A stretch of 64,000 nucleotides of DNA. Source: Rhodoplanes sp. GTDB lineage: Bacteria; Pseudomonadota; Alphaproteobacteria; Rhizobiales; Xanthobacteraceae. How positions within the stretch are numbered: position 1 is the first letter of the stretch; every line of letters begins with the position of its first letter. Position numbers and translations under genes: made by a program. Positions 8,397 through 25,835 of the stretch are shown one piece after another. Location of the stretch: positions 62,001 through 126,000 of the forward strand of contig NZ_JACAAX010000014.1 of assembly GCF_013377085.1 (NCBI RefSeq). Reading direction: 5' to 3'. The notes under the pieces are model-generated. The model ran no database searches, was not told where the DNA came from, and saw only the letters and a list, made by a program, of their open reading frames with translations.

Positions 8397-8557
8397 CGGA
8401 GAGACGCCGCCCGGCTTGCTGGCTACGGTGTGTCGCCCGCGCCACAACCCGCCACGACTCGCGCTGCGCCCTAGGGTTGCACAATCTATGCCCTGGACAT
8501 GCAACCCAAGATCGCAATCATGGCGCGGGGGCCGATGCTGTGCGTGTCGAGGGCATC

Positions 8558-10342
8558 ATGTGGCGGTCGCGTTGGAGTAGCCTCGCGTTGAGTATGACGT
8601 TGGCGGGTTTCGCGCAGGCCGCCGACCTGCCGCCACTCCCTCTGCCGCCGCTGCCGCCGCTGATCGAGCAGCCGGGCTCGGCCTGGAACTGGACGGGCCT
8701 CTATGTCGGCGCCCACACCGGCATGGCGCTCGGGCTGAACACGATCGCCGACCCGCTCGGCCCGTCGATTTTCGGCGACACGGTTCGCAGCCCGGGCTTC
8801 TTCGGTGGCCTGCAGGTCGGGCGGAACTGGCAGCCGGTCGGCTCCCGCGTCGTGCTCGGCGTCGAGGTCGAGACCAGCCTCGCCGATCTCGACGGCACCA
8901 ACACCTGCTACGCCGTTTCCGGCGCCTTCACGTCGTTCAACTGCCGGGCCCGCACCGACGTGCTCGGCACCGCCACGGCCCGGGCCGGCCTGACCCTCGG
9001 CGAGTTCGGCCGCAGCCTCGCCTATGTGAAAGGCGGCTTTGCCTGGAGCCACACCGAGTTCGAGACGCTTTTGAACGACAACCTGTTCGGCCGTGGGGCG
9101 ACGGCCCGGACCAGCGCCTTCGGGCTCGGCTGGACGGGCGGGGCCGGGGCCGAATACGCGCTCTCGGCGCACTGGACCGTCAAGGCCGAGTACGACTATC
9201 GCGACCTCGGCACGGTTGCCATGGCGGCGCCGCGCCGCGCCCCGGTGACGATCCCGGATATCGGGCCGCCCTCCGGCGTGCTGGTCACGGTGCCGGGCAC
9301 CGAGGTGGCGCAGCGCCTGCACACCTTCAAGCTGGGCGTGAATTACAAATACGGGCCCGACACGGCGCCGTTTCAGGACGGCATGACGCTGCCGTTCGCC
9401 AGCCTGCTGTCGCGCGCCTCCCGCCGGGTGCCGAAGCCGGCCTTCGTCTCCGACTGGAGTTTTGAAGGCGGCGGCCGCGTCTGGGTGAGTTCCGGACGCT
9501 TCCAGAAGGACATCGCCGGCGGCAATCTCGGCTACCAGAATCCGACCGTGAACGTCTCCCGGCTGACCTGGGACAACCTCGCCGGCACGACCGGCGAGGT
9601 TTTTGGCCGCCTCGACACGCCCTGGACCGTCTTCGTCAAAGGCTTCGTCGGCGGCGGCACGCTCACGGGCGGCAAGATCAACGACGAGGACTGGGGCGTC
9701 CCGTTCGGCGGCGCCGGAGTGAACACCGCCTACACCAATACGCAGGGCGATGCCTCCGGCCGGCTGAGCTACGCCACCATCGACGCCGGCTATGACTTCT
9801 TCCGCGGCGCCTCCTACAAGGTCGGCGGCTTCGTCGGCTACAACGTTTTTCGCGAGGACAAGAGCTCCTACTCCTGCACCCAGATCGCGCTGCCGGCCTC
9901 CGGCATCTGCAGCCCGCCCTTCACCGGCTTCGTCCTCGGCGAGAACGACCGCTGGCGTTCGTTGCGGGTCGGCACAGCCGCCGAGATCGTGCTGATGCCG
10001 GGCCTGACGCTCACGGCCGACGTGGCGTACCTGCCCTGGGTGAAATTCGACGGGCAGGACTTTCATCCGCAGCGCCCCTTCGTCGCCGACGAGTGGGGGC
10101 AGGGGATCGGCGCCCAGGCGGAGCTGTTCGTGACCTGGTATGTCACGCCCCAAATCAGCGTCGGGGCCGGCGGCCGCTGGTGGGCGATGTGGACGAAAAG
10201 CGGCTCGGCCTGCCGCGAGCCGCCGAACGGCGACTGCCCGGCGCCGCTGCAGGACATGCAGTTCAAGACCGAACGTTTCGGCGCCTTGTTCCAGGCCGCG
10301 TATCGCTGGGACGCGCCGGCGGCCGTCGTGGCGCGGGATTGA
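8558..10342 (+). CDS. Outer-membrane beta-barrel protein with two barrel-like halves
   Basis: The 594-residue product begins with a signal peptide (MWRSRWSSLALSMTLAGFAQA, cleavage before AD) and a proline-rich linker. The first half (about 45-290) resembles Omp25/31-type eight-stranded barrels: WNWTGLYVGAHTG at its start and LHTFKLGVNYKYG at its end. The second half (about 315-594) looks like another barrel (WSFEGGGRVWVSSGRF, then alternating aromatic strands), with an omptin-like flavour that I cannot prove. An upstream in-frame ATG (8477) would put 27 residues before the signal peptide, so 8558 is preferred. Function is probably structural or porin-like. Confidence 0.75.
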   Translation: MWRSRWSSLALSMTLAGFAQAADLPPLPLPPLPPLIEQPGSAWNWTGLYVGAHTGMALGLNTIADPLGPSIFGDTVRSPGFFGGLQVGRNWQPVGSRVVLGVEVETSLADLDGTNTCYAVSGAFTSFNCRARTDVLGTATARAGLTLGEFGRSLAYVKGGFAWSHTEFETLLNDNLFGRGATARTSAFGLGWTGGAGAEYALSAHWTVKAEYDYRDLGTVAMAAPRRAPVTIPDIGPPSGVLVTVPGTEVAQRLHTFKLGVNYKYGPDTAPFQDGMTLPFASLLSRASRRVPKPAFVSDWSFEGGGRVWVSSGRFQKDIAGGNLGYQNPTVNVSRLTWDNLAGTTGEVFGRLDTPWTVFVKGFVGGGTLTGGKINDEDWGVPFGGAGVNTAYTNTQGDASGRLSYATIDAGYDFFRGASYKVGGFVGYNVFREDKSSYSCTQIALPASGICSPPFTGFVLGENDRWRSLRVGTAAEIVLMPGLTLTADVAYLPWVKFDGQDFHPQRPFVADEWGQGIGAQAELFVTWYVTPQISVGAGGRWWAMWTKSGSACREPPNGDCPAPLQDMQFKTERFGALFQAAYRWDAPAAVVARD

Positions 10343-10478
10343 CCCGCGCCGGCGCAGTGGGGCTACACGGAGCGCGGGAGGTCTGTCGTATTTTCACCCG
10401 ATGTGTTGCAAGGAATCACTATCTGGTTGTCCCGTCGTAAATACACTACTGCGCAAGACTCGAGATCGGGGGGCGACG

Positions 10479-11402
10479 ATGACCAGGACAGTTCTTGCAA
10501 TGCTGGCGGCCGTTGCCGCGAGTGCGGTGATGCCGGCCGCGTACGCGGCGGACATGGCGCTGAAGGCCCAGCCCATGGTGCCGGTGGTGGATCCGTGGAA
10601 TTGGACCGGCTTTTATGTCGGCGGCAACGTCGGCTACAGTTGGGGGCGCGCCAAGTCGGACTACACCGACGTCACGACGACCTCGGTTCGGACGCGCGAT
10701 TATCGCGGCTTCACCACGCCACAACCGACCTTGCTGAGCGACACCACGGTGGTGGGCGCGACGACGACGATATTCGGCGACGCGAGCACGAACGTGAACG
10801 GGGCGCTCGGCGGACTGCAGGCCGGTTACAACTTCCAATCCGGGCGGTTCGTCTTCGGTCTGGAAACCGACTTCCAATGGACCGGCCAGCGCGGCGACAC
10901 GACGGTCTGCGCGATCGGCTGCGTCACCGGGTCGGCGTTCACGACGGTCGACCACAAGCTCGCCTGGTTCGGGACGGGCCGCGGGCGCGTCGGCGTGACG
11001 GTGGATCGGTATCTGGTCTACGCCACCGGCGGTCTCGCCTATGGCCGCATCAATTCCGACTACGCGGCCGGCTTCATCGGCGGCGCGGCGGCGCTGCTGT
11101 CGACGGACCGCACGCGGGTGGGGTGGACGGCCGGCGCCGGCGTCGAGGCGTTCCTGACCCGGAACTGGACCGTCAAGCTCGAGTATCTCTATGTCGATCT
11201 CGGCGACTATGGCGACCAGGTCGGCGGCGCCTCGGCAACCTCCACGGTGATCCTGCAGAACACGCCGCAGACGGCGTTGACGCGGGTGATCGATACGACG
11301 TCGACCCGCAACACGGCGATCAGCACCGGGTTCACCGACAACATCCTGCGGGTCGGCATCAACTACAAGTTCGACCCGACCCCGGTCGTCGCCCGCTATT
11401 GA
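10479..11402 (+). CDS. Omp25/31-family outer-membrane porin
   Basis: 307 residues with a signal peptide (MTRTVLAMLAAVAASAVMP ... YA, cleavage before AD). The mature barrel starts WNWTGFYVGGNVGYSWG and ends DNILRVGINYKFDP, both hallmarks of the alphaproteobacterial Omp25/31 family. The ATG at 10479 follows a GGGGGG stretch; an open frame extends upstream to 10140, but that part overlaps the preceding gene in another frame and lacks features. These small porins are abundant surface proteins. A 15-bp hairpin follows. Confidence 0.9.
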   Translation: MTRTVLAMLAAVAASAVMPAAYAADMALKAQPMVPVVDPWNWTGFYVGGNVGYSWGRAKSDYTDVTTTSVRTRDYRGFTTPQPTLLSDTTVVGATTTIFGDASTNVNGALGGLQAGYNFQSGRFVFGLETDFQWTGQRGDTTVCAIGCVTGSAFTTVDHKLAWFGTGRGRVGVTVDRYLVYATGGLAYGRINSDYAAGFIGGAAALLSTDRTRVGWTAGAGVEAFLTRNWTVKLEYLYVDLGDYGDQVGGASATSTVILQNTPQTALTRVIDTTSTRNTAISTGFTDNILRVGINYKFDPTPVVARY

Positions 11403-11548: not shown

Positions 11549-11624
11549 GGGCGGTTAGCTCAGTTGGTAGAGCGGCACGTTTACACCGTGTAGGTCGGCG
11601 GTTCGAGCCCGTCACCGCCCACCA
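11549..11624 (+). tRNA. tRNA-Val (anticodon TAC)
   Basis: A 76-nt tRNA. The acceptor GGGCGGT (11549-11555) pairs with ACCGCCC (11614-11620), then comes A and an encoded CCA. The anticodon stem GCACG/CGTGT holds loop TTTACAC (anticodon TAC), and the T-arm is GGCGG TTCGAGC CCGTC. Its last 15 bases (CGTCACCGCCCACCA, 11610-11624) recur at 12897 and 14173, marking it as a probable integration site. Confidence 0.97.
11610..11624 (+). repeat. Attachment-site core, copy 1 (in tRNA-Val)
   Basis: The 15-base tRNA 3' end. Downstream, CTCCCGCACC lies at 11662-11671, 37 nt after the core. Upstream is the intact tRNA, so this copy has only the downstream arm. This is the attL-like end of the tandem array. 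Confidence 0.7.
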
Positions 11625-11727
11625 ACCGGCCTTATGTCTTTGATGTCGTAGGGATTCCGGGCTCCCGCACCGCGCCTCGCGGGACGGCCTCCTCGCCGCG
11701 GCTTGTCCTCGGGGTCGAGCGTCCGGG

Positions 11728-11809
11728 CGTAGGGCAGAATAGCGAAGCGTATTCCGCCATTTTTCGCCAACCGGCGGATGATGGCGCCTCGCGCCTGATT
11801 CGCCCTACG
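11728..11809. repeat. Palindromic dispersed repeat, family E
   Basis: 82 bases bounded by the perfect inverted ends CGTAGGGC (11728-11735) and GCCCTACG (11802-11809), with AGAATAGCGAAGCGTATTCC inside. Elements of this form are common in proteobacterial intergenic DNA (recalled). The right end contains the stop codon of the adjacent minus-strand gene. Confidence 0.7.
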
Positions 11810-12419
11810 GGCTAACTATCTTATCAGGCAGACGCGCGTCTCTGGTAATGAGGCCTTCTTCTCTCAAAAGCTGTTCCCAATAACCAAACGCCTCAATGAA
11901 CAGCCGAACAGCATCCCACTTTTTTTCTCCGTCGTAGATTGAGAGTTGAAGTACCAAGTCGCCGACCTTGACATGTCCGGCAGGCTCTATAGCAGGCAAC
12001 CATTCCGCAAGCGCTTTTACATCAGGATCGCTTTTCCGCTTCCGCATATGTTTCGAAGCATTTGCAATCTCACGGCAAATGTGGATCTCTCGACTGTCCT
12101 TGCAAACAGCGTTCTGGAAGCGCTCAAGACCTTTATCGCGGCCGCTCATAGTCCACTCATTGAACTCGAACTTGAAACGCTTTCTCAATAGCGCCCGAGT
12201 CTCTTGCCGTGATTCCCAAAGCCAGTCAGTGATGTGCCACGCCGTAACCGCCGTGTTGAACGCGATGAATAGTGGCTCTGGAAAGCCCTCTGACTTCGTC
12301 CAAACGGACTGCGAGTTCATCAGCTTATCAATCTCGAAGGAAAGCTTCGAGACCATGTGCTGAGGCTCGTTTAGGCCGAACACATTAGGGATGTCGCTCG
12401 GTTTAGGCGCTTCGACCAT
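11805..12419 (-). CDS. Hypothetical protein, AT-rich, island gene
   Basis: I do not recognise this 204-residue protein. It is soluble, with no signal peptide or membrane segment, and is mostly helical by eye, with WHITDWLWES, FKFEFNEWT and CREIANASKHMRK as the most distinctive stretches. The arrangement of an arginine and a histidine around IANASKH recalls HEPN-like helical proteins, but the spacing is not the canonical R-x4-6-H, so no function is claimed. Base composition is clearly more AT-rich than its neighbours, supporting horizontal origin. It is the only gene in the first of two tandem units behind tRNA-Val. Its last codons and TAG stop fall in repeat E. Confidence 0.75.
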   Translation of the reverse strand: MVEAPKPSDIPNVFGLNEPQHMVSKLSFEIDKLMNSQSVWTKSEGFPEPLFIAFNTAVTAWHITDWLWESRQETRALLRKRFKFEFNEWTMSGRDKGLERFQNAVCKDSREIHICREIANASKHMRKRKSDPDVKALAEWLPAIEPAGHVKVGDLVLQLSIYDGEKKWDAVRLFIEAFGYWEQLLREEGLITRDARLPDKIVSP

Positions 12420-13100
12420 CGGGAGGCCTATAAAAAGGCTCCGGCTTGCGCCAGGGCCTCTAAACTGGTGTGGGGTGGCGGACTAGGAGTCCGCCATTGC
12501 GGCATCTTTCGGCTTTTGGGTTCGAACTTCCTCCAAAACGCCCTGTCACTGACGTGGCTTGCTCACCCTTTCAGGCCCCACAGCGCCGCGAGCATCCCCA
12601 AGCCGATTTCGACGAGTGCCACCATGTGAACCTCCAGTGAAAGGCTGATTGACCAGTCAATGTGAAGCCCGACGGTGAGCCACCACGCCACAACGGCGAC
12701 GAGATGGAAGTTGGTCGAACCTACTGCCGAACCAAATTCTTCACCAGTTTAGGGAGTGCTCAGCCCGGCTTCAAGCCGGAGTAGGTAGGAAGGCGTGCAC
12801 AGGCGCGGGACGGACCGAAAAATCCTGTTCCACCTCAAAGTGCCAGAAACTCCCGCACCCTGCGCCAACCCCTTGCCCGTCCTGAAAATTCCACCACGTC
12901 ACCGCCCACCAATGGATCCTAAATCATTGAAGTCGTGTCTTTTTCGCTTCCCGCACCGTGCGGGTCCAGCAGGAACTCGTAGTCCGGGTCGAGCGCCAGC
13001 GAAACCCGCGGCATTCCCCGTTACAACCGCGGATTTCGCTTGCGCTCTATCCGGGCAACGCTTGCTTTGCCCATGAGGTTGCGATCAAAGATCGCGGGTT
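12420..13100. other. Non-coding region with att-like junction between the two island units
   Basis: 681 bases without a credible gene. It contains the promoter region of the minus-strand unknown, a GGCGGACT-AGG-AGTCCGCC hairpin (about 12477-12495), an inverted pair CTAAACTGGTG (12460-12470) / CACCAGTTTAG (12742-12752), a CCGGCT-TCA-AGCCGG hairpin near 12765, and the second tRNA-Val core with its two flanking arms (12810-12970). Short open frames across the arm repeat are unlikely to be genes. Confidence 0.6.
12815..12911 (+). repeat. Direct repeat (upstream arm plus core), copy 2
   Basis: About 97 bases that align without gaps to 14077-14187 territory at roughly three-quarters identity, including GAAAAATC, CCTCAAAG, CTCCCGCACC (12850-12859) and TGCGCCAAC. 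They end in the 15-base tRNA-Val core (12897-12911). TCCCGCACC recurs downstream at 12949-12957, 37 nt after the core. This copy therefore has arms on both sides, as expected for an internal junction. Confidence 0.75.
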
Positions 13101-13955
13101 TCATGGCCGCGCACTGTTTCCACCCTTCTGCAGCATGGGTGGCGGCTGGGTCGCTTTCACGGTCTCATCGGTGCCGAGGAACGTCAGCACGATGCGCGCG
13201 AACCCCGTCGGGGTCTCGTACATCAACTCGTGCGTCGCGTTCTTGAACTGAACCAGCCACGCGCCCGCGATCGCCGCCGCCAGCACTTTCGAGCTTTCGG
13301 GGTACACGACCGTGTCCGCAGTGCCGACCACGAACATCACCGGGTTGGTGACGGCAGCGATGCGATCCATCGGCGTCTTCCAGTGTGTCGTCGCCTCGAC
13401 TTGGCGGGCGACGATCGGATCCGGGATCGTCTTGCCCTTCAGCGCCGCCGCGACATTGCTGCCATCGGTGGTGGTCGCGTGGACGATCGCCTTGTCGAAC
13501 CGCTGCGGATAGGTGAGCAACAGCTCCTGCGTCATGGTGCTGCCCATGGAATAGCCGAGCACATGCGTCTTCTCGACATCGAGGGCGTCGAGCAGACCGA
13601 TGACGTCGTCGGCGAACAGTCTGTAGGTGAACGTCGTGGCGTTGGCGCTCGTGTGCCCCATGCCGCGGTTGTCGGGCATGATGAGTTGGTATTTTTTCGC
13701 CAGCGCGGCGACGATTTGCGGTTGCCAGTGCTCGATGGTGCCGCCCAGCCCCATGATCATCACCAGCGGCGGACCCGAACCGACCAGCTTGTAGCCGATG
13801 TCGATGCCGTTGGCGTGGACCTGACGGATGGCATGCCCCTGGCTGTCGCGAGCGATGATCTTGCCCGCCGGACGCACCTGCTGGGCCATGGCGCTGCCGA
13901 CGCACAGTATCAGCGCGACGGCAAACGCTGAAATGCGCCATGCAATTCTTGTCAT
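13101..13955 (-). CDS. Exported alpha/beta hydrolase
   Basis: 284 residues with a signal peptide (MTRIAWRISAFAVALILCVG ... AMA, cleavage before QQ), so probably periplasmic. The alpha/beta-hydrolase fold has oxyanion-region MIMGLGGT, nucleophile Ser136 (GYSMGS), acid Asp214 (GTADTVV) and His242 (ATHELMY), a complete triad. Substrate unknown; esterase or lactonase activities are typical. The ATG at 13955 has GAGGGGG just upstream, so the longer frame to 13994 is rejected. It is the only gene in the second tandem unit behind tRNA-Val and has the same orientation and the same distance from its left core (about 190 bases) as the gene in the first unit. Confidence 0.88.
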   Translation of the reverse strand: MTRIAWRISAFAVALILCVGSAMAQQVRPAGKIIARDSQGHAIRQVHANGIDIGYKLVGSGPPLVMIMGLGGTIEHWQPQIVAALAKKYQLIMPDNRGMGHTSANATTFTYRLFADDVIGLLDALDVEKTHVLGYSMGSTMTQELLLTYPQRFDKAIVHATTTDGSNVAAALKGKTIPDPIVARQVEATTHWKTPMDRIAAVTNPVMFVVGTADTVVYPESSKVLAAAIAGAWLVQFKNATHELMYETPTGFARIVLTFLGTDETVKATQPPPMLQKGGNSARP

Positions 13956-14385
13956 CGATCCCCCTCGTTTATTGGCGGCGAACCGAATCAGCACTCCGCC
14001 TTACGCCGCGAGCCTCGAATCGGGATAATGACCACGCCAGTACGTAAGAACCCTTCCGCTCAAAAACGCCGGAAAACGGTGCGGGATGGACAGAAAAATC
14101 TTGTTCCGCCTCAAAGCGCCAGAATCTCCCGCACCTTGCGCCAACTCCTTGCGCTACGGAGGAATTCGACTTCGTCACCGCCCACCATGCGGCGCCTGTC
14201 TGTCCCTATCCATTTGGATGACAATGTTTTTGGGGACGCGCCGCCCATGGCGGCCAATCAGCCGTTCCTCGAGCCGTCCGTCTCGCCTTCGGCCCGCCGA
14301 TTCCGAAGGATGATTTACTGGCTGGTGTCTCGACCTGCGGTGTCTTGCAGCGGCGACGCTTCGCGTCCTGCTCCGAACGCCCCGA
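13956..14385. other. Non-coding right end of the tRNA-Val island
   Basis: 430 bases with no credible gene. It includes the promoter of the hydrolase and the third arm-plus-core repeat (14078-14187); 14188-14385 lacks a TCCCGCACC arm and is interpreted as resumed chromosomal sequence. Confidence 0.55.
14078..14187 (+). repeat. Direct repeat (upstream arm plus core), copy 3
   Basis: This matches copy 2 through GAAAAATC, CCTCAAAG, CTCCCGCACC (14126-14135) and TGCGCCAAC, and ends in the tRNA-Val core CGTCACCGCCCACCA (14173-14187). The arm motif is 37 nt upstream of the core, exactly as in copy 2. Its reverse complement GGTGCGGGA is at 14078-14086. No arm lies downstream, as expected for an attR-like end. 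Confidence 0.75.
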
Positions 14386-16257
14386 TCAGAACGGTGCGCC
14401 GAGCGTGACGGTCACGGCTGAAATGCGGTCCCCCGGCTGGCCGAACGTCGTCGACGCGCCAACTCCGAGACGTACGATTTTGCTGAACTCGGCGTTGAAT
14501 CCGGCCAGCATGGTGCCGTAGCCGCCGGTCAGGTTGGCCATCGCAATTTCCAGGCTGGACGTTCCGCCGACAAATCCGACCCGGTAGGTGCGTTCGTCGT
14601 CCTTGTGTTCGTAATCGTAGGACAACTGTCCGTAAGGACGCACGCGGACGCCGAACCAGTGGCTTTCGGCGGCAACCTGCCAGCCGAGCCGCGAGCGCAG
14701 CGACTCGCGGGCCTGATCGCCATAGCTCATCGCCGTCACGCTGCTCGAGTTTTCGCTGAAGCCATTCACGTCGACACGCGCCCAAGCCAGCCCGGCAAGA
14801 GGGCCGTGCACGACGTCGCCGAAAACGAAGTTGTAGCCGACCTGCCCCTTGGCGGCGAACCGGTTGCCGCCCGTGTCGCCGCTTTCGACGGTGTTGAAGG
14901 GACCGAGCGCGATCCTGCGGGTGCTCGCGAAATCGAGCCGGGAGTAGCTCGCCAAGGCATTTGCATAGAAGGCGCCGAGCTTGTACGCGCCGAATCCCGA
15001 AAGCGTCCACTCGTCGTAGTTCACCGAACCCAGGTTGTTGCCGTAATCGAACGGGACATGCCCGTACCCCAGGGTCACGCCCCCGAACATCTGGTCGTTC
15101 AAGGCCTTCTCGTAACCGATGACGAAGTTGGTGCCGGAGTCGTCGCCCGATGGAATTCCGCCTGACGCATCTCTTTTCGAATAGGAATAGTCGGTGCTGA
15201 AAAAGACCCCCTGGCCTGTGTAGCCGAAGTTTTCGAACTCCTGCAGCCGGGAGTCGATGGACCGCCACTGTGCACCGGCACGCGCCATCGCCACCTGGGA
15301 CAGCAGGCCGGCGCGGTTCGCCGCTTCCAACGACGAATAGACCCAATCGGAAATGATCCTGTGGCCGCCCTCCGACGGGTGCTTGGGGTCGGCAAACAGA
15401 TAGCCGCCCGTTCCTGCAGGCGCTGGGCAACCCAGCGCGGCCGCACAGGCCGCGTCGGTCGTGTTGGTGAAACCGTAAGCCGCCGGATTGGCGAGAATGG
15501 TGCCGAGCAATCGGCTGGTGTCGAAATAGAGGGCGTTCTTGCCGGCCAGCCCCGTCACCAGGGCCGTGTTGAACGTCGATACCAGGCTTTGAAGCTCTGC
15601 CGAATACGGAAGCTGCGCCGCCTCGTGGGCATAGGGCGTCCTGCTGATGTCCATGATGCCGACGACGATCAGATTGCGCACACCGGCCGATTGCAGACGG
15701 GTCACCTGCGCCACCATGTCGTCCGCCGCCGTCACCAGCGCCGCCTGGCCGGCCGCGAGCGTCCCGCCGCCCATGACCGCGCTGAACTGCGCGATGACAT
15801 CGTTGTGCCCGCCCGAAACAGCATAGAGCGCGTTTCGATCCACCGGCCCGCGCGCCAGAAAGTCGTCGACCTGGGTGCTCACCGGTGGAATGCCCACGGC
15901 GTAGGACGGCCCTGTCGGTGCGAGGCTGATGCGGCCCATGCCGACTGCAAAGTCGTTGCCGCCGGCGATGGGCGTGAAACCGTACACCGGGAGCGTCGGC
16001 ACGACGGCGTAGGACGGCGTCACCGACAGACCGTACCGGACGCCGAGATTCTGCGCCCAGATCGTTCCGGGGTTGGTCGAGAAGTGGCTGTTCGCCCCGA
16101 CACCGGGGATCGCGGCGAAGACACCGGCATCGGTGAGGCTGTCACCGAAGAAATAGGCGTTCGAATACGGACCCGCCTGAGCGCCGGAAACCGCTCCGAT
16201 CAGCAACGAGGCCAGCGCGACGCCCCGTTTCAGCATGGACCGCCGATGTCTGTTCAT
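14386..16257 (-). CDS. Autotransporter with GDSL esterase/lipase passenger
   Basis: The 623-residue product has a signal peptide (to about A28), a GDSL/SGNH hydrolase passenger (about 30-320) and a C-terminal autotransporter beta-barrel (about 345-623) ending in a terminal Phe. Catalytic blocks are visible: FFGDSLTDAG with nucleophile Ser40, GGNDFAVG, GGHND, and DPKHPSEGGH near residue 290 with the catalytic Asp-His. This layout matches EstA-type surface esterases that stay anchored in the outer membrane. Upstream in-frame codons to 16401 would precede the signal peptide and are rejected. It stands alone; an AT-rich leader with three phased GTAATA repeats lies upstream. Confidence 0.92.
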   Translation of the reverse strand: MNRHRRSMLKRGVALASLLIGAVSGAQAGPYSNAYFFGDSLTDAGVFAAIPGVGANSHFSTNPGTIWAQNLGVRYGLSVTPSYAVVPTLPVYGFTPIAGGNDFAVGMGRISLAPTGPSYAVGIPPVSTQVDDFLARGPVDRNALYAVSGGHNDVIAQFSAVMGGGTLAAGQAALVTAADDMVAQVTRLQSAGVRNLIVVGIMDISRTPYAHEAAQLPYSAELQSLVSTFNTALVTGLAGKNALYFDTSRLLGTILANPAAYGFTNTTDAACAAALGCPAPAGTGGYLFADPKHPSEGGHRIISDWVYSSLEAANRAGLLSQVAMARAGAQWRSIDSRLQEFENFGYTGQGVFFSTDYSYSKRDASGGIPSGDDSGTNFVIGYEKALNDQMFGGVTLGYGHVPFDYGNNLGSVNYDEWTLSGFGAYKLGAFYANALASYSRLDFASTRRIALGPFNTVESGDTGGNRFAAKGQVGYNFVFGDVVHGPLAGLAWARVDVNGFSENSSSVTAMSYGDQARESLRSRLGWQVAAESHWFGVRVRPYGQLSYDYEHKDDERTYRVGFVGGTSSLEIAMANLTGGYGTMLAGFNAEFSKIVRLGVGASTTFGQPGDRISAVTVTLGAPF

Positions 16258-16587
16258 GTCGCTCGCCTCGCATGCGCCAAACCCGATGACGGCTGGCGGA
16301 CCACAGGGACATCGCTCGACAACCGAGATCGGTTGCTGCTCGCGTTTCACGGCTTCGCGTTTTCGGGGGCCTGGATCGAAGTGGTAAATAATTCGTAACA
16401 AAAAGCGGTTAATAAATCGTAATACAGAGTAATACTGCGTAATATAGTAGTTGCGGCTTAATCTGCTTACGCATCACAGAGAATCGGCTCGTTTTGCTCA
16501 GTCCGCACGTTCCGCTTGCTGAATATCCGCCCGGGGGCCGGACCAGGGCTGTGCCGCCTGTCGTCGCCTCGGCCGTTCGCTTCGTTG
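16258..16587. other. AT-rich divergent leader
   Basis: 330 bases between the autotransporter start and the end of the LysR gene. An AT-rich block (16381-16450) carries three GTAATA hexamers at 10-base spacing, listed separately. No gene is supported. Confidence 0.55.
16419..16444 (-). promoter_or_regulatory. Three helically phased GTAATA repeats upstream of the autotransporter
   Basis: GTAATA occurs at 16419, 16429 and 16439, exactly 10 bases apart, about 160-190 bases upstream of the minus-strand autotransporter gene. Such spacing places the repeats on one face of the helix, as for a cooperative operator or curved DNA. No regulator is assigned. Confidence 0.4.
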
Positions 16588-17463
16588 TCAGGGCTGTCGG
16601 GCACGCTTCGGCTCCTGGCCCAGAAACGCCCGCACCAAATGGGCGCGGGACGAGGCCTGCAGCCAGACGAGGCCGATGCGGCGGACGAACTTGGTCTTGT
16701 GGATCGGCAGCTTCTTCAGCGTCAGCCCGGCCGGCCAGGGCGGCGCCCAGTCGGGCACCAGCGACACGCCCAATCCCTGGTCGACCAGCACGGCGATGGC
16801 GTCGAGCGAATCGAGCTCGAAGCGCTCGCGCGGCCTGATCTTGGCGTGGCGCAGATAGCGGTCGGCGAGGCGCCCGCCCCAATGGGTGTGGTCGTAGCGG
16901 ATGAACGGGTGGCCGGTCAGGATCTCGCGCGGATCCGAGCTTTCGACCGAGCCGGGCGCGATCACCATCAGGGGCTCGTGCCGCAGCACCCGCCAGGCGC
17001 AGCTCTTCGGCAGCGCGAACTCCGGCTGGACGATGATGGCGGCGTCGATCTCGCCGGCCAGCACCTTGGGATAGAGGTCGCGCGACGTGCCCGGCGCGAT
17101 ATGGACGTCGATGCGCGGGAACGCCGTGCTGCAGCGTTTCAGGAGGTCGGGCAGCAGACCCGTCATGGCGGTCGCGACGGCGCCGAGCCGCAGCGCGCCG
17201 GCCGGCTCGTCGACCACGGCGATGCTGCGCAGATCCTCGACGCCGCGCAGGATGGCGCGCGCCCGCGCCATCACGGCCGATCCGGCCGCGGTCGGCACCA
17301 TGGTGCGGCCCGACCGCGCGAGAAGCCGCGTCCCGATCTCCGCCTCCAGCACCTGCAGCCGCTGGGTGACGGCCGCCGCCGTGACGTTGAGATGGCGCGC
17401 CGCGGCGGCGATCGATCCCTTGTCGACCACCAGCATGAAGCTCTCGAGGAAGCGCGTGTCCAT
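16588..17463 (-). CDS. LysR-family transcriptional regulator
   Basis: 291 residues. An N-terminal winged helix-turn-helix ([20 protein letters not shown], then [19 protein letters not shown], about 5-45) is followed by a periplasmic-binding-protein-like effector domain. It is transcribed divergently from the SDR-led catabolic operon, with 98 bases between the starts, so it probably controls that operon in response to a pathway intermediate. An imperfect dyad (ATCC-N12-GGAT, 17496-17515) lies in the shared promoter region. Confidence 0.92.
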
Positions 17464-17495
17464 CGTCAGAAAAACTAAGGTCTGAACGCAGGAGA

Positions 17496-17515
17496 ATCCA
17501 TCTTTTTTATCGGAT
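17496..17515. promoter_or_regulatory. Candidate LysR operator in divergent promoter
   Basis: ATCC (17496-17499) and GGAT (17512-17515) form a small dyad around a T-rich centre in the 98-base gap between the divergent LysR and SDR genes. Position and symmetry suit a LysR-type box; the arms are short. Confidence 0.3.
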
Positions 17516-17561
17516 CGGCCTGCCCGACCATTCCCCGCAACGCGACAAGGGGAGGCGAGGC

Positions 17562-18347
17562 ATGGATCTCGGGCTGACGGGGCGCACGGCGCTCGTGCTG
17601 GGCGGCGGCGGCGGACTGGGCAGCGCGATCGCCGCCACGCTGGCGCGCGAGGGTGCGGCGACCGCGGTGGCGGACATCGACCTCGCGGCGAGCGAAAAGG
17701 TGGTTCAGGCGATCGAGGCCGCCGGCGGGCGCGGCCTGGCGCTCGCCTGGGATCTCGCCGATCTCGGCGTCGTCGACGCGCGGGTGTCGGCCGTGGAGGC
17801 GGCGTTCGGCCCGGTCGACGTGCTGGTCGCCATCACGGGCGGTCCGCCGCCGACCCCGGCCGCCGGCCAGGACCCGGCGCTGTGGACGCGCTCGTTCCAG
17901 TCGATGGTGCTGTCGGTCATCGCCGTCACGGACCGGGTCCTGCCGAAAATGCGGGCGCGACAATTCGGCCGCATCGTCACCTCGACGTCCTCGGGCGTGA
18001 TCGCGCCGATCCCCAATCTCGCGGTGTCGAACGCGCTGCGGCTGTCGCTGGTCGGCTGGTCGAAGACGCTCGCCCGCGAGGTCGGCCGCGACGGCGTCAC
18101 GGTCAACATCGTGGTGCCGGGCCGCATCGCCACCGGCCGCATCCGCTTCCTCGACGAGCAGAAGGCCAAGCGGGACGGGCGCGCCGTCGCCGATATCGCG
18201 GCCGAGAGCGAGGGCTCGATCCCGATCGGCCGCTACGGCGAGCCGCAGGAATACGCCGACGTCGTCGCCTTCCTGGCGAGCAGCCGCGCCTCCTACGTCA
18301 CCGGCTCGGTCGTGCGGGTCGACGGCGGTCTCGTTCCCAGCATCTAG
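17562..18347 (+). CDS. SDR-family oxidoreductase lacking the canonical YxxxK
   Basis: 261 residues with a Rossmann nucleotide-binding start ([14 protein letters not shown], about 11-24) and the SDR C-terminal region ([16 protein letters not shown]). At the usual active site the serine-rich strand TSTSSGV is present, but the catalytic Tyr-x3-Lys is replaced by a run [10 protein letters not shown], with Ser-Asn and Arg where Tyr and Lys are expected. A recognisable SDR subgroup shares this SNA[VL]R pattern (recalled). It may use altered chemistry or act non-catalytically. It is the first gene of the catabolic cluster, with a strong GGGGAGG ribosome binding site, and is followed 30 bases later by the RraA-like gene. 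Confidence 0.85.
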
Positions 18348-18377
18348 CTTCATCCATCGACAACGGACAACAGCAAC

Positions 18378-19094
18378 ATGTCGGACACCAGCCTGGATCT
18401 GCCGCGCGACGTCATCGAGACCCTGCAGGGCGTGACCACCGCGACCCTCACCACGGTGCTGCTGAAGAAAGGCCTGCGCAATGTGTGGATGCGCGGCGCC
18501 CGCCCGCTGCAGCCCGGCCAGCCGCGCATCGTCGGCCGTGCCTTCACGCTGCGCTTCGTGCCGGCCCGCGAGGACCTGGCGACGCCGGAGAGTTGGTCGA
18601 AGCCGATCTCGACCCGCGGCGCCATCGAGGCGATGCCGGAGGGCGTCGTCGTCGTCGTCGACGCGATGGGCATCACCGATGCCGGCATCTTCGGCGACAT
18701 TCTCTGCGCCCGCATGAAGAAGCGGAACGTCGCCGCGCTGGTGACGGACGGGGTGGTGCGCGACCTCGCCGGCGTGCTCTCGACCGGGCTGCCGGTGTGG
18801 TGCGGGGGCGCGGCCGCGCCGCCCTCGGTCGCCGGGCTCACCTTCGTCAACTGGCAGGAGCCGATCGGCTGCGGCGGCGTCGCGGTGTTTCCGAACGACG
18901 TGGTGGTGGTCGACCAGGACGGCGCCGTGCTGATCCCGGCGGCGCTGCTCGACCATGTGCTCGCCACCGCGCCCGAGCAGGAGCGCATGGAAGGGTGGAT
19001 CATGGAGGAGGTGACGCGCGGCGCCCCGCTGCCCGGCCTCTATCCGATGAACGAGGCGACCAAGGCGCGCTACGAGGCCTCGAAGAAAGGCTGA
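18378..19094 (+). CDS. RraA-like protein / HMG-type aldolase
   Basis: 238 residues of the RraA/menaquinone-methyltransferase-like fold (VVVVVDAMGITDAGIFGDIL, then TDGVVRDL, with the conserved G-D-x-L and R-D metal/substrate motifs). Members are either regulators of RNase E (RraA proper) or class II aldolases cleaving 4-hydroxy-4-methyl- or 4-carboxy-4-hydroxy-2-oxoadipate. The catabolic neighbours favour the aldolase role. Length is longer than E. coli RraA (about 161), which also fits the aldolase-like branch. Confidence 0.8.
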   Translation: MSDTSLDLPRDVIETLQGVTTATLTTVLLKKGLRNVWMRGARPLQPGQPRIVGRAFTLRFVPAREDLATPESWSKPISTRGAIEAMPEGVVVVVDAMGITDAGIFGDILCARMKKRNVAALVTDGVVRDLAGVLSTGLPVWCGGAAAPPSVAGLTFVNWQEPIGCGGVAVFPNDVVVVDQDGAVLIPAALLDHVLATAPEQERMEGWIMEEVTRGAPLPGLYPMNEATKARYEASKKG

Positions 19095-19194
19095 CGCCGG
19101 CGCCGAACGGCACGACTGGGGTCCGGCGCAATGCCGCCGGACTTTTTCACCAGATCATCGAAACGGTCCGCGAGAGGCCGATCGGGAGGAGTTC

Positions 19195-20175
19195 ATGATG
19201 CGCGACCTGACAGGACGACTCTGTGCGCTGACTGCCGCGATCTGGACGCTGTCGTGTGTCGCGGCCGCGGCACAGCCGACCACCATCGTGGTTCCCTATG
19301 CGGCGGGCGGCCCGACCGACGTGGTGGCGCGGCTGCTCGCCGACCGCATGGGCCGCACGCTCGGGCAGACCATCATCGTCGAGAATGTCGCCGGTGCCGG
19401 CGGCACCATCGGTCCGGCCCGGGTCGCGCGGTCGACGCCGGACGGCAGCACGATCCTGATCCACCACATTTCCCTGCTGGCGGCGCCCGGGCTGTATTCC
19501 AACCTGTCCTACGACACCCGCACGGCGTTCGAGCCGGTCGGCCTGGTCAACACCGGGCCGATGGTGCTGGTCGGGCGCAAGACGCTGGCACCGGCGGACG
19601 GCGCCGCGCTGATCCCCTGGCTGAAGCAGAACGGCGACAAGGTGAACTTCGCCCATGCGGGCAACGGGACAAGCCAGCACTTCTGCACGGTGCAACTCGG
19701 CAACGTGGTCGGCTTCCGGCCGAGCTTCGTCTCCTATCGCGGTGCGGCGCCGGCCATGAACGACCTCGTCGCCGGCCAGATCGACATGATCTGCGACCAG
19801 TCGAGCAACGCCATCCCGCAGGTCCAGAGCGGCACGGTGCGGGCCTATGCGGTGACGTCGAAGACGCGGCTCGACTCGATCAAGGACGTGCCGACCATGG
19901 CCGAGGTCGGCCTGCCGGAGGTCGACTATGCCGTGTGGCACGGCCTGTATGTACCGAAGGGAACGCCGCCGGCGACCGTCGAGAAGCTCAACGCCGCCCT
20001 GCGCAAAGCCCTCGACGACCCGTTGGTGATCGAGCGCTTCAAGGAACTCGGTACGACGCCGTTCCCGGCCGACCGGCGTTCGCCGGCTGCGCATGCAACA
20101 CTGTTCTCAACCGAGTTCGACCGGCTGGCCAAGCTGATCGAGAGCGCCGGGCTCAAGGCGACCACGGCGAACTGA
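19195..20175 (+). CDS. Bug/TctC-family periplasmic solute-binding protein
   Basis: 326 residues: signal peptide (MMRDLTGRLCALTAAIWTLS ... AAA), then the Bug signature IVVPYAAGGPTDVVARLLAD and a two-lobed binding-protein fold. Family members bind carboxylates for tripartite tricarboxylate transporters. No TctA or TctB membrane genes are present in the window, so it is an orphan binding protein that must use components elsewhere or act as a sensor. Its place in the operon suggests the substrate is an organic acid degraded by the flanking enzymes. Confidence 0.9.
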   Translation: MMRDLTGRLCALTAAIWTLSCVAAAAQPTTIVVPYAAGGPTDVVARLLADRMGRTLGQTIIVENVAGAGGTIGPARVARSTPDGSTILIHHISLLAAPGLYSNLSYDTRTAFEPVGLVNTGPMVLVGRKTLAPADGAALIPWLKQNGDKVNFAHAGNGTSQHFCTVQLGNVVGFRPSFVSYRGAAPAMNDLVAGQIDMICDQSSNAIPQVQSGTVRAYAVTSKTRLDSIKDVPTMAEVGLPEVDYAVWHGLYVPKGTPPATVEKLNAALRKALDDPLVIERFKELGTTPFPADRRSPAAHATLFSTEFDRLAKLIESAGLKATTAN

Positions 20176-20221
20176 GAACGCCGCCGGACGTCGGCCGCAG
20201 CAGAGAGGCGAGGGCAGGGCC

Positions 20222-21394
20222 GTGCGCATCAAAACCGTGATCGAGCGGACCGTGAAGGTCGACTCCAAGGTGCGCAATGCGCGGGTCGATCTCGGCCAGA
20301 TGACGGTGTCGGCCGTCGCGGTCGTCACCGATGTCCACGGCGACGGCGGGTCGATCACCGGCTTCGCCTTCAACTCGTTCGGCCGCTACGGCTGCGGCGG
20401 CCCGCTGCGCGACCGCTTCATCCCGCGCCTGCTGGCGCTGGAGCCGGCCGACCTGCTCGACCCGGCGGGCACGAACGTCGATCCGGGCCGCATTCTCGCC
20501 GCGCTGCTGACGCGCGAAAAAGCCGCCGGCCATGCCGAGCGCTCGATGGCGCTGGGCACGCTGGAGCTGGCGCTGTGGGACGTGGTCGCCAAGGTCGAGC
20601 GGCGGCCGCTCTATCAGGTGCTCGCCGACCGGTTCGGTGGCGGCGCGGCCACGCTGCCGGGGGACATTCCGACCTATGCGGCCGGCGGCTTCTACGGCAA
20701 TGCCGACGAGGTCCCGGCGGTCGGCGCCACGGTGGCGGGCTGGCGCGACGCCGGCTTCGTCGACGCCAAGATCAAGGCGGGCGGCGGCGATCTCGGCCTC
20801 GACTGCCGGCGCATCGAGGCGGCGCGCGCGGCGCAGCCGCCCGGCGGCCGGCTCGCCCTGGATCTCAGTTGCGCCTTCGACGCGGCCTCGGGCGTGCAGT
20901 TCGCGCAGGCGGTGAAGCCCTACGATCCGTGGTTCCTGGAGGAGCCCTGCGATCCGCTCGACTTCGAGGGTTATCACGCCGTCGCGCAGACCGGCTGCCG
21001 CATCGCCGGGGGAGAAAATCTCTTCGCCGCGCGAGAGTTCGACAATTTCCTCCGCTACGGACGGCTTGGTCCCGGCGTCGTGCTCGAGCCCGATCCGGCG
21101 CTCGCCTACGGCGTGACCGGCCTGCGCGAGATCGTCGCGGTGGCGCAGGCGCACGGCCTGTCGAAGGCCGCGATCTATCCGCACGGCGGCAACATGATGT
21201 CGCTGCATATCGTCGCCGGTCTGGGGCTCGCCGGGCTCGAAGCCTATCCGGGCCAGTTCGGCATCTTTGGCGGGTTCAGCCGCGAGATCGACATCCGCGA
21301 CGGCCGCGCCAGCCTGCCGTCTGCACCCGGCATCGGCTTCGAGGAGCAGCCGGCGCTGTTCGCGCTGTTCGACGAGATGGCGCGTAGCGCCTGA
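20222..21394 (+). CDS. Mandelate racemase / muconate lactonizing enzyme family protein
   Basis: 390 residues starting at GTG (20222), with GAGGCGAGGGCAGG upstream. Enolase-superfamily fold: N-terminal capping domain, then a barrel with DAKIKAGGGDLGLD (catalytic Lys region), metal ligands in LALDLSCAF, EEPCDP and GGENL, and a C-terminal PHGGNMMSLH. Such enzymes abstract a proton alpha to a carboxylate (racemases, sugar-acid dehydratases, cycloisomerases). The exact substrate is not deducible. It is located between the Bug protein and a dehydrogenase. Confidence 0.88.
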   Translation: MRIKTVIERTVKVDSKVRNARVDLGQMTVSAVAVVTDVHGDGGSITGFAFNSFGRYGCGGPLRDRFIPRLLALEPADLLDPAGTNVDPGRILAALLTREKAAGHAERSMALGTLELALWDVVAKVERRPLYQVLADRFGGGAATLPGDIPTYAAGGFYGNADEVPAVGATVAGWRDAGFVDAKIKAGGGDLGLDCRRIEAARAAQPPGGRLALDLSCAFDAASGVQFAQAVKPYDPWFLEEPCDPLDFEGYHAVAQTGCRIAGGENLFAAREFDNFLRYGRLGPGVVLEPDPALAYGVTGLREIVAVAQAHGLSKAAIYPHGGNMMSLHIVAGLGLAGLEAYPGQFGIFGGFSREIDIRDGRASLPSAPGIGFEEQPALFALFDEMARSA

Positions 21395-21460
21395 ACGCCG
21401 GCGACACGACCGCCGCGCGACCGCGAGACCCTGAGAATCGACAGCAATCGGAGAACCGAC

Positions 21461-22303
21461 ATGAGCCCGGTCATCGCCATCGTCGCCGCCGGAGCGATGG
21501 GAAGCGCGGTCGCGCGCCGCTGCATCGAGAACGGGGCGCGGGTGCTGACGTCGCTCGAGAGCCGTGGCGCCGCGACGGCGCAGCGCGCCGCGGCAGTGGG
21601 TATGACGGCCGCGACCGACGACGAAATAGCCGGCGCCGACCTGGTTTTCTCCGTGGTGCCACCTGCCGAGGCCGCCGCACTGGCCCGGCGACTGGCGCAG
21701 GCGTTCGCCCGCACGGGGAAAACCCCCGTCTATGTCGACTGCAACGCCGTCAACGTGACGACCAAGCAGGAGATCGGTGCCATCGCGATGGCAGGCGGCG
21801 CCCGCTTCGTCGATGCCGCGATCATCGGCTTTCCCCCCGCACCCGGCGAGGTCGGCCCCGCCGTCTATCTCTCGGGCGAGGCGGCGCGTGATGCCACCGT
21901 GCTGGGTACGCTCGGTCTGAACGTGATCGTCATGGAGGCGCCGGTCGGCGCCGCGTCGGCGCTGAAGATGTCGTTCGCGGGTCTCAACAAGGGCATGACC
22001 GGGCTTGCCGCCGCCATGATGCTCGCCGCGTCTCGGGCCGGTGCGTCCAGGGCATTGCGCGAAGAACTGGCGAGCAGCCAGCCGCAGGTGCTGGCGCGCT
22101 TTTCGCGCACCGTCCCGGACATGTATCCGAAGGCGTATCGCTGGGTCGCCGAGATGCACGAGATCGCGGAATTTCTCGGCGACGATCCGGCGGCGCGGAA
22201 AATCTTCGAGGGCATGGCCGAGCTGTTTGCCCGCATCGCGGCCGACGTCGAGTCCGGGCGGGAGGAGGTGCGCCTGTTGGACGCGTTCTTCACCGCACCA
22301 TGA
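21461..22303 (+). CDS. NAD(P)-binding dehydrogenase with DUF1932 C-terminal domain
   Basis: 280 residues. The N-terminal Rossmann domain (VIAIVAAGAMGSAVARRC) has Ala at the first glycine of GxGxMG. The C-terminal helical domain (ALKMSFAGLNKGMTGL, PDMYPKAYRWVAEM) is DUF1932, as in 6-phosphogluconate- or 3-hydroxyisobutyrate-dehydrogenase-like proteins. The Lys in ALKMSFAGLNKG corresponds to the conserved catalytic/substrate Lys. It is the last gene of the five-gene cluster, probably oxidising a hydroxy-acid made or used by its neighbours. It faces livF convergently, with a hairpin between. Confidence 0.85.
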   Translation: MSPVIAIVAAGAMGSAVARRCIENGARVLTSLESRGAATAQRAAAVGMTAATDDEIAGADLVFSVVPPAEAAALARRLAQAFARTGKTPVYVDCNAVNVTTKQEIGAIAMAGGARFVDAAIIGFPPAPGEVGPAVYLSGEAARDATVLGTLGLNVIVMEAPVGAASALKMSFAGLNKGMTGLAAAMMLAASRAGASRALREELASSQPQVLARFSRTVPDMYPKAYRWVAEMHEIAEFLGDDPAARKIFEGMAELFARIAADVESGREEVRLLDAFFTAP

Positions 22304-22427
22304 CGATCGCTGGCGGGATCTCGCCCGCCGCGCCGACGTCACGGCCGAGCAGGGCGATTGCGGGCAGCCGCGGGTGATCCTGCATCGCCGCGGGCTGGTC
22401 GACCGCCGGTCGGGGGCCGAGGGAAGG

Positions 22428-22456
22428 CCCTCGCCGAACCCGGGGCTCGGCGAGGG
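22428..22456. terminator. Bidirectional hairpin between convergent operons
   Basis: CCCTCGCCGA (22428-22437) and TCGGCGAGGG (22447-22456) form a perfect 10-bp stem with a 9-base loop, between the ends of the DUF1932 gene and livF. It could terminate both operons. Confidence 0.6.
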
Positions 22457-22484
22457 GCTCCGGCCCGGCCCGTCCGCGGCGCGT

Positions 22485-23189
22485 CTAAATCCCCAGATAG
22501 GCGGTGCGGACGTGCTCGTTGTTCGCCAGCTCGTCGCTCGCCCCGTGCAGGACCACGCGTCCGGTTTCCAGCACGTAGGCGCGGGTCGACACCGCGAGCG
22601 CCTCGGCGAGGTTCTGCTCGACCAGGAGCAGCGACACGCCTTGGCCCGAGATCGTCTTGATGATCTCGAACACGGCCTCGACCATGATGGGGGCGAGCCC
22701 GAGCGAGGGCTCGTCCAGGATCAGCAGCTTGGGGTGGCTCATCAGCGCCCGTGCGATCGCCAGCATCTGCTGCTGTCCACCGCTCAGCGAACCGCCGAGC
22801 TGCGATTCCTTCTCGCGCAGGACCGGGAACAGGTCGTAGACCATCTTCATGGTCTCGGGGCGCCGCTCGCGGGCCGCCGGTACGTAGCCGCCGAGCAGCA
22901 GGTTGTCCTTCACGGTGAGCTGGGTGAGCACGCCGCGCCCCTGCGGGATATGGGCGATGCCGAGCGCCGGAAGCTTGTGCGCCGGCAGCGCGCCGAGATC
23001 CTGTCCGTCGAACACGATGCTGCCCGACCAGACCGGCACCAGCCCGGAAATGGCTCGCAGCAGCGTCGTCTTGCCGGCGCCGTTGGACCCCACCAGCGAG
23101 ACCGCCTCTCCCGACTCCACCGTCAGGGAGACGCAGTCCAGCACTTTCATGTCGCCGTAGCCGGCGCTGATCGCTTTGACGTCGAGCAC
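22485..23189 (-). CDS. livF: Branched-chain amino acid-type ABC transporter ATPase LivF
   Basis: 234 residues starting at GTG (23189), with GGGGGGAG about 10 bases upstream. The start overlaps the end of livG by 43 bases; a longer frame upstream runs antiparallel to livG's real frame and is rejected. Walker A is GSNGAGKTT, the ABC signature LSGGQQQ, Walker B LLILDEP, and VEQN precedes the switch. It is one of two ATPases energising uptake by LivHM. Final gene of the long minus-strand set. Confidence 0.93.
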   Translation of the reverse strand: MLDVKAISAGYGDMKVLDCVSLTVESGEAVSLVGSNGAGKTTLLRAISGLVPVWSGSIVFDGQDLGALPAHKLPALGIAHIPQGRGVLTQLTVKDNLLLGGYVPAARERRPETMKMVYDLFPVLREKESQLGGSLSGGQQQMLAIARALMSHPKLLILDEPSLGLAPIMVEAVFEIIKTISGQGVSLLLVEQNLAEALAVSTRAYVLETGRVVLHGASDELANNEHVRTAYLGI

Positions 23190-23920
23190 AGCTTCGAACT
23201 CCCCCCGAGATAGGCCCGGATCACCTTTTCGTCTCTCATCACGGCCTGCGGCGAGCCCTCGGCCAGGAGCTCGCCCTGGTTCAGCACCACCACGCGATGA
23301 CAGAGCGCCACCACGGCCTTCATCACGTGCTCGATGAAGATCACGCTGACGCCGGTCCTGTTGATCAGCCGCACGAGGTCGAGGCCCTCGTCCATCTCGC
23401 GCGGATTGAGTCCGGCGAGACATTCGTCGAGCATCAGGACCTTGGGCTTGAGGGCGAGCGCCCGGCAGAGGTCGAGCCGCCGCCGGCGCTCGACCGGCAG
23501 GTTGGCGCTCGTCACGTCGACGCAATCGGCGAGACCGGTCAGCGCGATGCATTCGCGCGCCGCGGCCTCGGCCTCGGCGGGGCGGTCGGTGTGCAGCAGT
23601 GCCGCGACCGTGACGTTCTCCAGCACCGTCATGCCGAGGAAGGGCCGCGACGACTGGAACGTGCGGGCGACCCCGTGCCGCGCCATGGCGGGAGTGGGCA
23701 GCCCGGTGACGTCGACGTCCTGGAGGAGCGCCCTGCCGCCGTCGGGCCTGAAGGTTCCGGCGATGGTGTTGACGAATGTCGACTTGCCGGACCCGTTGGG
23801 TCCGATCAGGCCGAGAATCTCGCCCTCCGCGAGGTCGAGGCTGACGTCCTTGAGGGCGTGGACGCCCTGGAAGGACTTCTTGAGATTGGTCACCTTAAGC
23901 AACGTGGACACGGGTTCCAA
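23147..23920 (-). CDS. livG: Branched-chain amino acid-type ABC transporter ATPase LivG
   Basis: 257 residues. Walker A is GPNGSGKST and Walker B VLMLDE. The signature motif is degenerate (LPVERRRRLDLCRAL in place of LSGGQ), as is usual for LivG relatives. FIEHVM is the switch-His segment. It pairs with LivF. The gene overlaps livM by 26 bases and livF by 43 bases, so the importer genes are translationally coupled. Confidence 0.93.
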   Translation of the reverse strand: MEPVSTLLKVTNLKKSFQGVHALKDVSLDLAEGEILGLIGPNGSGKSTFVNTIAGTFRPDGGRALLQDVDVTGLPTPAMARHGVARTFQSSRPFLGMTVLENVTVAALLHTDRPAEAEAAARECIALTGLADCVDVTSANLPVERRRRLDLCRALALKPKVLMLDECLAGLNPREMDEGLDLVRLINRTGVSVIFIEHVMKAVVALCHRVVVLNQGELLAEGSPQAVMRDEKVIRAYLGGSSKLCSTSKRSAPATAT

Positions 23921-25756: not shown

Positions 25757-25835
25757 GAGCGTCCCCCGTCGGTGCGAGAACTCTGCGACTGGACGGAGGG
25801 CGGGGCGCGAAGGTCGCTTCCCCGCCCGACCGTCG

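Follow-up and report, generated by a model that had tools for sequence, protein, structure and literature searches.

Two integrase-less elements of one gene each in tandem at the 3′ end of a tRNA-Val gene in Rhodoplanes, probably moved in trans by a phage integrase

The 64,000-nucleotide stretch of Rhodoplanes sp. DNA considered in the present work (contig NZ_JACAAX010000014.1, positions 62,001 to 126,000; called the window below) contains a tRNA-Val gene whose last 15 bases recur twice downstream of it, which raises the question of what placed these repeats there and whether the two intervals that they delimit, here called element A and element B, are units that move. The two intervals are non-autonomous elements flanked by attachment (att) sites, resembling the cis-mobilizable elements (CIMEs) and additive flexible genomic islands (fGIs) of other bacteria. 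On the sequence evidence assembled below it is quite likely that they are integrative elements of one gene each, inserted in tandem at the 3′ end of tRNA-Val(TAC) with the P′ arm on the left and the P arm on the right, and that they are moved in trans by a phage integrase from the family found at larger elements with this att layout. The features concerned, in window coordinates, are the following.

11549–11624, + strand: tRNA-Val (TAC) gene (ARAGORN, Rfam), the target gene, whose 3′ end is the attachment core
11610–11624, + strand: core 1, attL, with the bacterial left side and the P′ arm of element A
11625–12911, + strand: element A, 1287 bp, GC content 56% (window 67%)
11663–11671, + strand: P′ arm site TCCCGCACC of element A, separated from core 1 by 38 nt; its inverted partner is CGCGGGA at 11678–11684 (by eye)
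11805–12419, − strand: open reading frame (ORF) of 204 aa, the only long gene of element A
12797–12896, + strand: P arm of element A, with arm sites GGCGCGGGA at 12802–12810 and TCCCGCACC at 12851–12859
12897–12911, + strand: core 2, an attP-like junction between the P arm of element A and the P′ arm of element B
12912–14187, + strand: element B, 1276 bp, GC content 62% (window 67%)
12949–12957, + strand: P′ arm site TCCCGCACC of element B, separated from core 2 by 37 nt; its inverted partner is GTGCGGG at 12958–12964 (by eye)
12976–13066, no strand assigned: hairpin repeat resembling repetitive extragenic palindromic (REP) sequences, adjoining the P′ arm of element B
13101–13994, − strand: alpha/beta hydrolase ORF of 297 aa, the only long gene of element B
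14073–14172, + strand: P arm of element B, with inverted arm sites GGTGCGGGA at 14078–14086 and TCCCGCACC at 14127–14135
14173–14187, + strand: core 3, attR of element B
14188–33421, no strand assigned: further strain-specific DNA of the tRNA-Val hotspot

An exact search confirms the claim of an earlier, sequence-only reading of this DNA that the 15-bp tRNA-Val 3′ end, CGTCACCGCCCACCA, recurs at 12897 and 14173: the window holds three exact copies, at 11610, 12897 and 14173, all on the + strand, and no further copy even when two mismatches are allowed, while the number of exact copies expected per window from dinucleotide composition on both strands is 0.0003. A fourth exact core is absent from the same genome (6.48 Mb in 89 contigs), in which BLAST finds no further block of arm and core. 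The 9-base arm motif TCCCGCACC occurs six times in the window, against 1.1 copies expected from shuffling. Four of these copies were known to the sequence-only reading, which spaced them uniformly at 37 nt from the cores; this distance holds before and after core 2 and before core 3, but the copy after core 1 stands at 38 nt. The same reading was right that the motif is missing before core 1 and after core 3 (none within 60 nt), and it overlooked a fifth copy, inverted at 14078–14086, which is the partner arm of the copy at 14127; the sixth, at 44945, is unrelated. The upstream arm that it described as about 80 bases long is indeed common to cores 2 and 3, but measures 110 nt including the core (82% alike; alternatively, 91 of 115 positions) and contains the second, inverted arm site (14078–14086; GGCGCGGGA at 12802–12810). 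That such a pattern should be due to chance, or to a dispersed REP-type repeat which includes the tRNA end and involves no recombinase, has next to no probability: a REP-like hairpin does adjoin the P′ arm of element B, and similar repeats occur in several relatives (after the P′ arm in genomes G003 and G005, and twice near the tRNA in G002), but the expected core count is 0.0003, no other copy of arm and core is detected in the genome by BLAST, the precise empty site of genome G048 contradicts it, and the same arms occur at integrase-bearing elements, as described below.

Each element carries one long ORF, antisense to the tRNA gene, and neither encodes an integrase; nor does tblastn with the integrases collected in this analysis detect one anywhere in the window. 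The true start of the 297-aa hydrolase ORF of element B may be the ATG at 13955, which is followed by a stretch resembling a signal peptide by eye. The 204-aa ORF of element A has no match in Pfam (up to an E-value of 10), NCBIfam, PHROG or PADLOC, and no meaningful relative of solved structure, and the searches made detected no relatives of it among plasmids, phages or viral contigs; its single-sequence AlphaFold2 model is poor, with a predicted local distance difference test (pLDDT) score of 42.5. Its assignment as a HEPN protein is unsupported, given an E-value of 2.5 in a BLASTP comparison with the AbiU2-like protein of G005 and the lack of a Pfam match. Homologues of this ORF are present in 9 of 382 genomes of the family, the genome under study included. 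Two homologues in other genera (L169, L170) were seen near tRNA genes, one about 70 nt after a tRNA-Pro gene and one in a 3.5-kb locus with a tRNA-Ser gene; no tRNA-end repeat was seen at either locus, and neither is matched by the P arm model R1 introduced below.

A plain DNA search with the block around core 2 matches the tRNA-Val locus of G005 (E-value 1.4e-8) and of G003, both of the same genus (three of six genomes positive, counting the one under study), and tRNA-Val in G077, which belongs to another genus of the family (E-value 2.8e-5). The arm blocks of G005 and G077 align with the two of the window at a mean column identity of 78% over about 120 nt. The element of G005 consists of a P′ arm, a 232-aa gene, a P arm and then a degenerate core, 1.09 kb in total, and its gene weakly matches HEPN_AbiU2 (22.1 bits, the Pfam cut-off being 26.8); that of G077 is 1507 bp long and holds one 388-aa hydrolase-like gene, for which Pfam support is very weak; in G003 the tRNA keeps a P′ half-site only. 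The insertion in G077 is precise, as is seen from its congener G048, in which tRNA-Val immediately adjoins the flank found beyond the second core of G077, with one 15-bp core and 1507 bp fewer. G005 and G001 have the right flank in common, and it begins again no more than about 7 nt from where the degenerate core of G005 ends; G001 has a different single-gene insert in the cassette slot, without recognisable arms. The slot is adjoined in G005 (L022 7130–7979, by Pfam) and in G001 (L152, by DNA similarity) by a DUF4160/DUF2442 gene pair, a possible toxin-antitoxin system. As an empty site the third genome of the G077 genus, G098, is uninformative, its flank lying 0.6 Mb from the tRNA; G077, G048 and G098 all contain a dispersed repeat of about 130 bp in dozens of copies per genome. 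Twelve further, weak loci of the DNA search (L027–L038) were discarded because they show neither tRNA-Val nor a core; in L028 and L036 there is only the 9-base arm, and L032 lies near a tRNA-Lys gene.

R1, a sequence model of the P arm and core, is based on four sites (cores 2 and 3 of the window, G005 and G077), which it scores by construction at 89–105 bits; under the stricter filters no other match in 391 genomes of the family exceeds 28 bits. A scan of genome contigs with exact att patterns yields 21 loci, of which R1 supports one, L108 (20.5 bits), in the Beijerinckiaceae metagenome-assembled genome G391. There one contig (L133 7738–18376) carries tRNA-Val followed by an antisense ORF, ZorA1-B1-C1-D1 and a type I methyltransferase gene, and a second contig (L134 1–6799) starts within a specificity-like gene (by eye) and continues with HEC-07 and a type I restriction gene, followed by the P arm and core. 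The interval comprises at least 17.4 kb, with a contig break inside it (the two contigs are unjoined in the data), and has no integrase match.

The sizes of these elements bear on a different account of the array, to which a modest probability is assigned: elements A and B could be the decay remnants of two larger prophages or integrative and conjugative elements (ICEs) that stood in tandem and were reduced by deletion to their att ends and one gene each, as in classical CIMEs, and would then be immobile as units. The passages on CIMEs in PMC5704250 and PMC7563491 describe them as decayed elements that retain att sites; decay does occur at this locus in relatives, as seen in the half-site of G003 and the degenerate core of G005; and the same att occurs in G391 at an element that is 17.4 kb or more in length. 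Elements A and B and those of G005 and G077 are nevertheless all compact (1.09–1.5 kb), with one intact long ORF each in the same orientation, this ORF is not a phage gene by the searches made, the cargo differs among the elements, and between G077 and G048 the 1507-bp unit is present or absent as such.

The att anatomy of elements A and B is also present at elements that encode a tyrosine integrase. One of them, in the same genome (C67:29656–96500, L100–L104), is a prophage of 66,820 bp between two identical 25-bp cores (at 29656 and 96476), with PHROG matches to terminase, portal, capsid and tail proteins and with DNA polymerase genes. Its target, recognised by eye, is the 3′ end of a gene resembling YdcF/DUF218. 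Its 355-aa tyrosine integrase gene has its stop 8 nt from the left core, where an inverted arm pair is found, and its right core has a P arm of the window type (R1 18.7 bits, E-value 0.0075), a match that is weak alone but coincides exactly with the end of the prophage. In G140 and G212 there are integrases with 46% and 49% identity to the prophage enzyme, and 64% to each other, which lie 22 and 35 nt after tRNA-Leu(GAG), and an R1 match (26.8 and 21.2 bits) with the same tRNA end is found 45.6 kb and 41.1 kb away, respectively. A more distant integrase relative (29–34%) is encoded in G343, at about 160 nt from a P arm; the core of this arm cannot be recognised as a tRNA end. In G140 the 45.6-kb integrase-bearing element is followed in tandem by a second element of 3407 bp (L071 9366–12772) with the same core and P arm, which holds one 655-aa ice-binding autotransporter gene and in which no integrase was found; units without an integrase would be expected to stand in this way if they relied on that of a neighbour. 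In G217, too, an interval of 12.3 kb at tRNA-Leu has no integrase match. A MAFFT alignment of the P′ arms with those of the integrase-bearing elements was misplaced for the prophage and was not used; distances were counted by eye.

The layout extends to phages. With the G212 integrase as query, tblastn matches 29 phage and 30 plasmid records, four of which were looked at for att layout. Beside its integrase, Pseudanabaena phage Pam5 has an inverted P′ arm pair, a core ending in CCCCCACCA and a P arm with a deviating outer site; the 46.6-kb Bradyrhizobium “plasmid” NZ_CP094518.1 (L217) has a P arm and core beside the integrase (R1 24.8 bits); a P arm pair is present in MW202613; and nothing of the layout was seen in R. 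leguminosarum pPR6. By its annotation NZ_CP094518.1 is a circular phage genome (portal, major capsid protein, S24 family peptidase). The integrase of Pam5 (ON014757.1, L213) is 54% identical to that of G212, and the cyanobacterial host stated for this phage may deserve a check. Among the genomes of the family R1 gives 41 weak matches, and at the 27 with assigned loci that were examined the predicted core ends in [CG]ACCA in 9, compared with 4.5% by chance; an inverted arm pair is present in 8 of the 27, and 7 of these 8 also end in [CG]ACCA. Most of the remaining weak loci are probably chance matches. The sequence-only reading had proposed a search for a tyrosine recombinase with the same arms, and recombinases of this kind are thus found (in the prophage, G140, G212, at one end in G343 and in circular phages), but none specific for the tRNA-Val core.

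Together with the empty site in G048, the occurrence of the same arms at integrase-bearing elements supports the tandem attachment-site geometry that had been read from the sequence. Elements A and B are probably moved in trans by a phage integrase, and the course of events can be envisaged as follows. An integrase of the same family, encoded by a phage or prophage and specific for the tRNA-Val core, would act in trans and bind the predicted inverted arm sites GGTGCGGGA/TCCCGCACC, and the 15-bp core of a circular cassette would recombine with the core of the tRNA gene or of a cassette already inserted. Every insertion would restore the tRNA, so that cassettes would accumulate head to tail, and excision between cores 1 and 2, 2 and 3, or 1 and 3 would free one or both cassettes as circles. 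The integrase stop lies 8–35 nt from the core in G140, G212 and the prophage, and the gene is antisense to the tRNA in G140 and G212; in the four tRNA-Val elements the single gene is likewise antisense to the tRNA, with its stop 14 nt (G077) or 180–196 nt (A, B and G005) from the core, and the cargo gene may have taken the place of the integrase gene.

A wider proposal can be put forward only tentatively, its chances being somewhat below even: that these elements represent a class of cassettes of about 1–1.5 kb with a phage attP, in which the cargo has the place and orientation of the integrase gene (antisense to the target, on the P′ side), which are moved as units in trans by one integrase clade into integron-like arrays at tRNA genes, and which share their sites with larger integrase-less defence elements (those with the AbiU2-like gene in G005 and with Zorya I and type I restriction-modification in Beijerinckiaceae). 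If the reading is right, integron-like arrays at tRNA genes would have their single genes shuffled by ordinary phage integrases, and searching with the att signature, a P arm model combined with a tRNA end, would find units, including defence genes, that integrase searches miss.

Several observations weigh against the reading of elements A and B as integrative elements moved in trans by such an integrase. No integrase specific for the tRNA-Val core was found by the scans of the genome, order and viral sequences or by the integrase queries: the exact att scan of genome contigs, with R1 support for one of its 21 loci, yielded no helper integrase; the stricter att pattern of the order scan occurred in the genome under study alone among 397; the viral contig scans gave two matches without R1 support and one zero result; and ten integrase queries matched at none of 16 tRNA-Val loci. 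The core of the prophage in the same genome differs from the tRNA-Val core, and R1 scores only the Bradyrhizobium record among the four phage or plasmid records looked at. The P′ arm motif was not seen in the element of G077 or in that of G391 (Beijerinckiaceae), and the second core of G005 is degenerate. Such elements are also rare, with strong R1 matches in 3 of 391 genomes of the family, the present one included. Finally, the DNA to the right of core 3 is not the ancestral flank.

This last point is evident from the right flank common to G002, G003 and G005 (three of the four congeners compared), which begins 1.1, 2.9 and 3.3 kb, respectively, from tRNA-Val in these genomes and resumes in the window only at about 33,422; the 10.6 kb retrieved for G001 do not show it. 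The roles assigned by the sequence-only reading, in which core 1 is attL, core 2 the junction of two elements and core 3 attR, stand as att roles; since 14188–33421 is itself strain-specific, core 3 is the end of element B and not a junction with the ancestral chromosome. It had further been predicted that an empty site would join tRNA-Val to about 14188, and no examined relative shows this: an empty site is available for the homologous element of G077, in G048, but not for the locus in the window, and G001 and G002, which lack the elements, were set aside as empty sites for it because their right flank is unlike the DNA from 14188 onward. In G002, G003 and G005, whose common flank lies 1.1–3.3 kb from the tRNA, the tRNA-Val locus lacks 14188–33421, as would be seen if the cassettes and the 19 kb to their right had arrived as one island, with the three cores internal to it. 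Such a joint arrival is improbable, since no further core or P arm is found in 14188–33421, and in G005 and G077 the cassettes homologous to A and B occur without it. The 19 kb absent from the locus in G002, G003 and G005 include a gene for a GDSL autotransporter (Pfam) and, by eye, LysR, TctC-like and other genes. On the other side of the array, between lon and tRNA-Val (8477–11402), lie two outer-membrane beta-barrel genes, the first recognised by Pfam and the second by eye; in G001 the tRNA follows within about 0.3 kb of lon.

Among known systems, integrons and clusters of attC sites lacking integron-integrases (CALINs) differ from elements A and B in their recombination sites, those of A and B being of the P-core-P′ phage type with a tRNA-end core; the prophage integrase scores 12.8 bits against the integron integrase model, for which the cut-off is 265. 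Phage satellites, such as phage-inducible chromosomal islands (PICIs) and phage-inducible chromosomal minimalist islands (PICMIs), and tycheposons are similar in that they depend on other elements or target tRNA ends. Phage satellites carry their own recombinase or regulators, whereas elements A and B are 1.3 kb in size with one gene, and the single long ORF of each belongs to no integrase, regulatory or packaging family. Tycheposons, as characterised in the portion of PMC10872708 that concerns them, are 4–200 kb long and carry a tyrosine recombinase at a tRNA, and elements A and B, at 1.29 and 1.28 kb, have no recombinase. Large symbiosis ICEs of Bradyrhizobium integrate at tRNA-Val, according to the relevant part of PMC9174649.

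The closest likenesses are to CIMEs and additive fGIs, in so far as the excerpts of the cited papers portray them. The CIMEs of the streptococcal accretion arrays formed by ICEs and integrative and mobilizable elements (IMEs) are, like elements A and B, att-flanked, without an integrase, equipped with cargo and arranged in tandem at the 3′ end of a target gene (PMC5704250, PMC7563491), “classical CIMEs” with cargo measuring 1.2–13 kb (PMC7563491). Elements A and B have attL and attR flanks and no genes for integration or transfer; no remnants of ICE, IME or prophage-type genes are recognised in their single ORFs, and their arms match prophage-type integrase systems. They differ from CIMEs in that their att sites are of the phage integrase type and not those of an ICE, and in that two integrase-less units stand together here, an integrase-bearing partner not having been found at the locus. 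In additive fGIs, exemplified by the tRNA-Lys cassettes of Methylophilaceae (330 bp–42 kb, 1–63 coding sequences; PMC10872708) and by Alteromonas fGI1 (PMC4119200), cassettes are added at a conserved tRNA whose last bases are repeated. The present locus likewise has a tRNA target with direct repeats of its 3′ end and varies in content at a conserved location, with a different, partial or no cassette in G001, G002, G003 and G005 and an empty site in G048. The limited search made of open papers returned no report of single-gene units that stand at a tRNA and share their attP layout with an identified clade of phage integrases, and the excerpts on additive fGIs give no arm sites or recombinase family, whereas the analysis here identifies the arms, a clade of related integrases and a precise empty site. 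Compared on this basis, the array in the window belongs to a known kind, that of CIMEs and additive fGIs.

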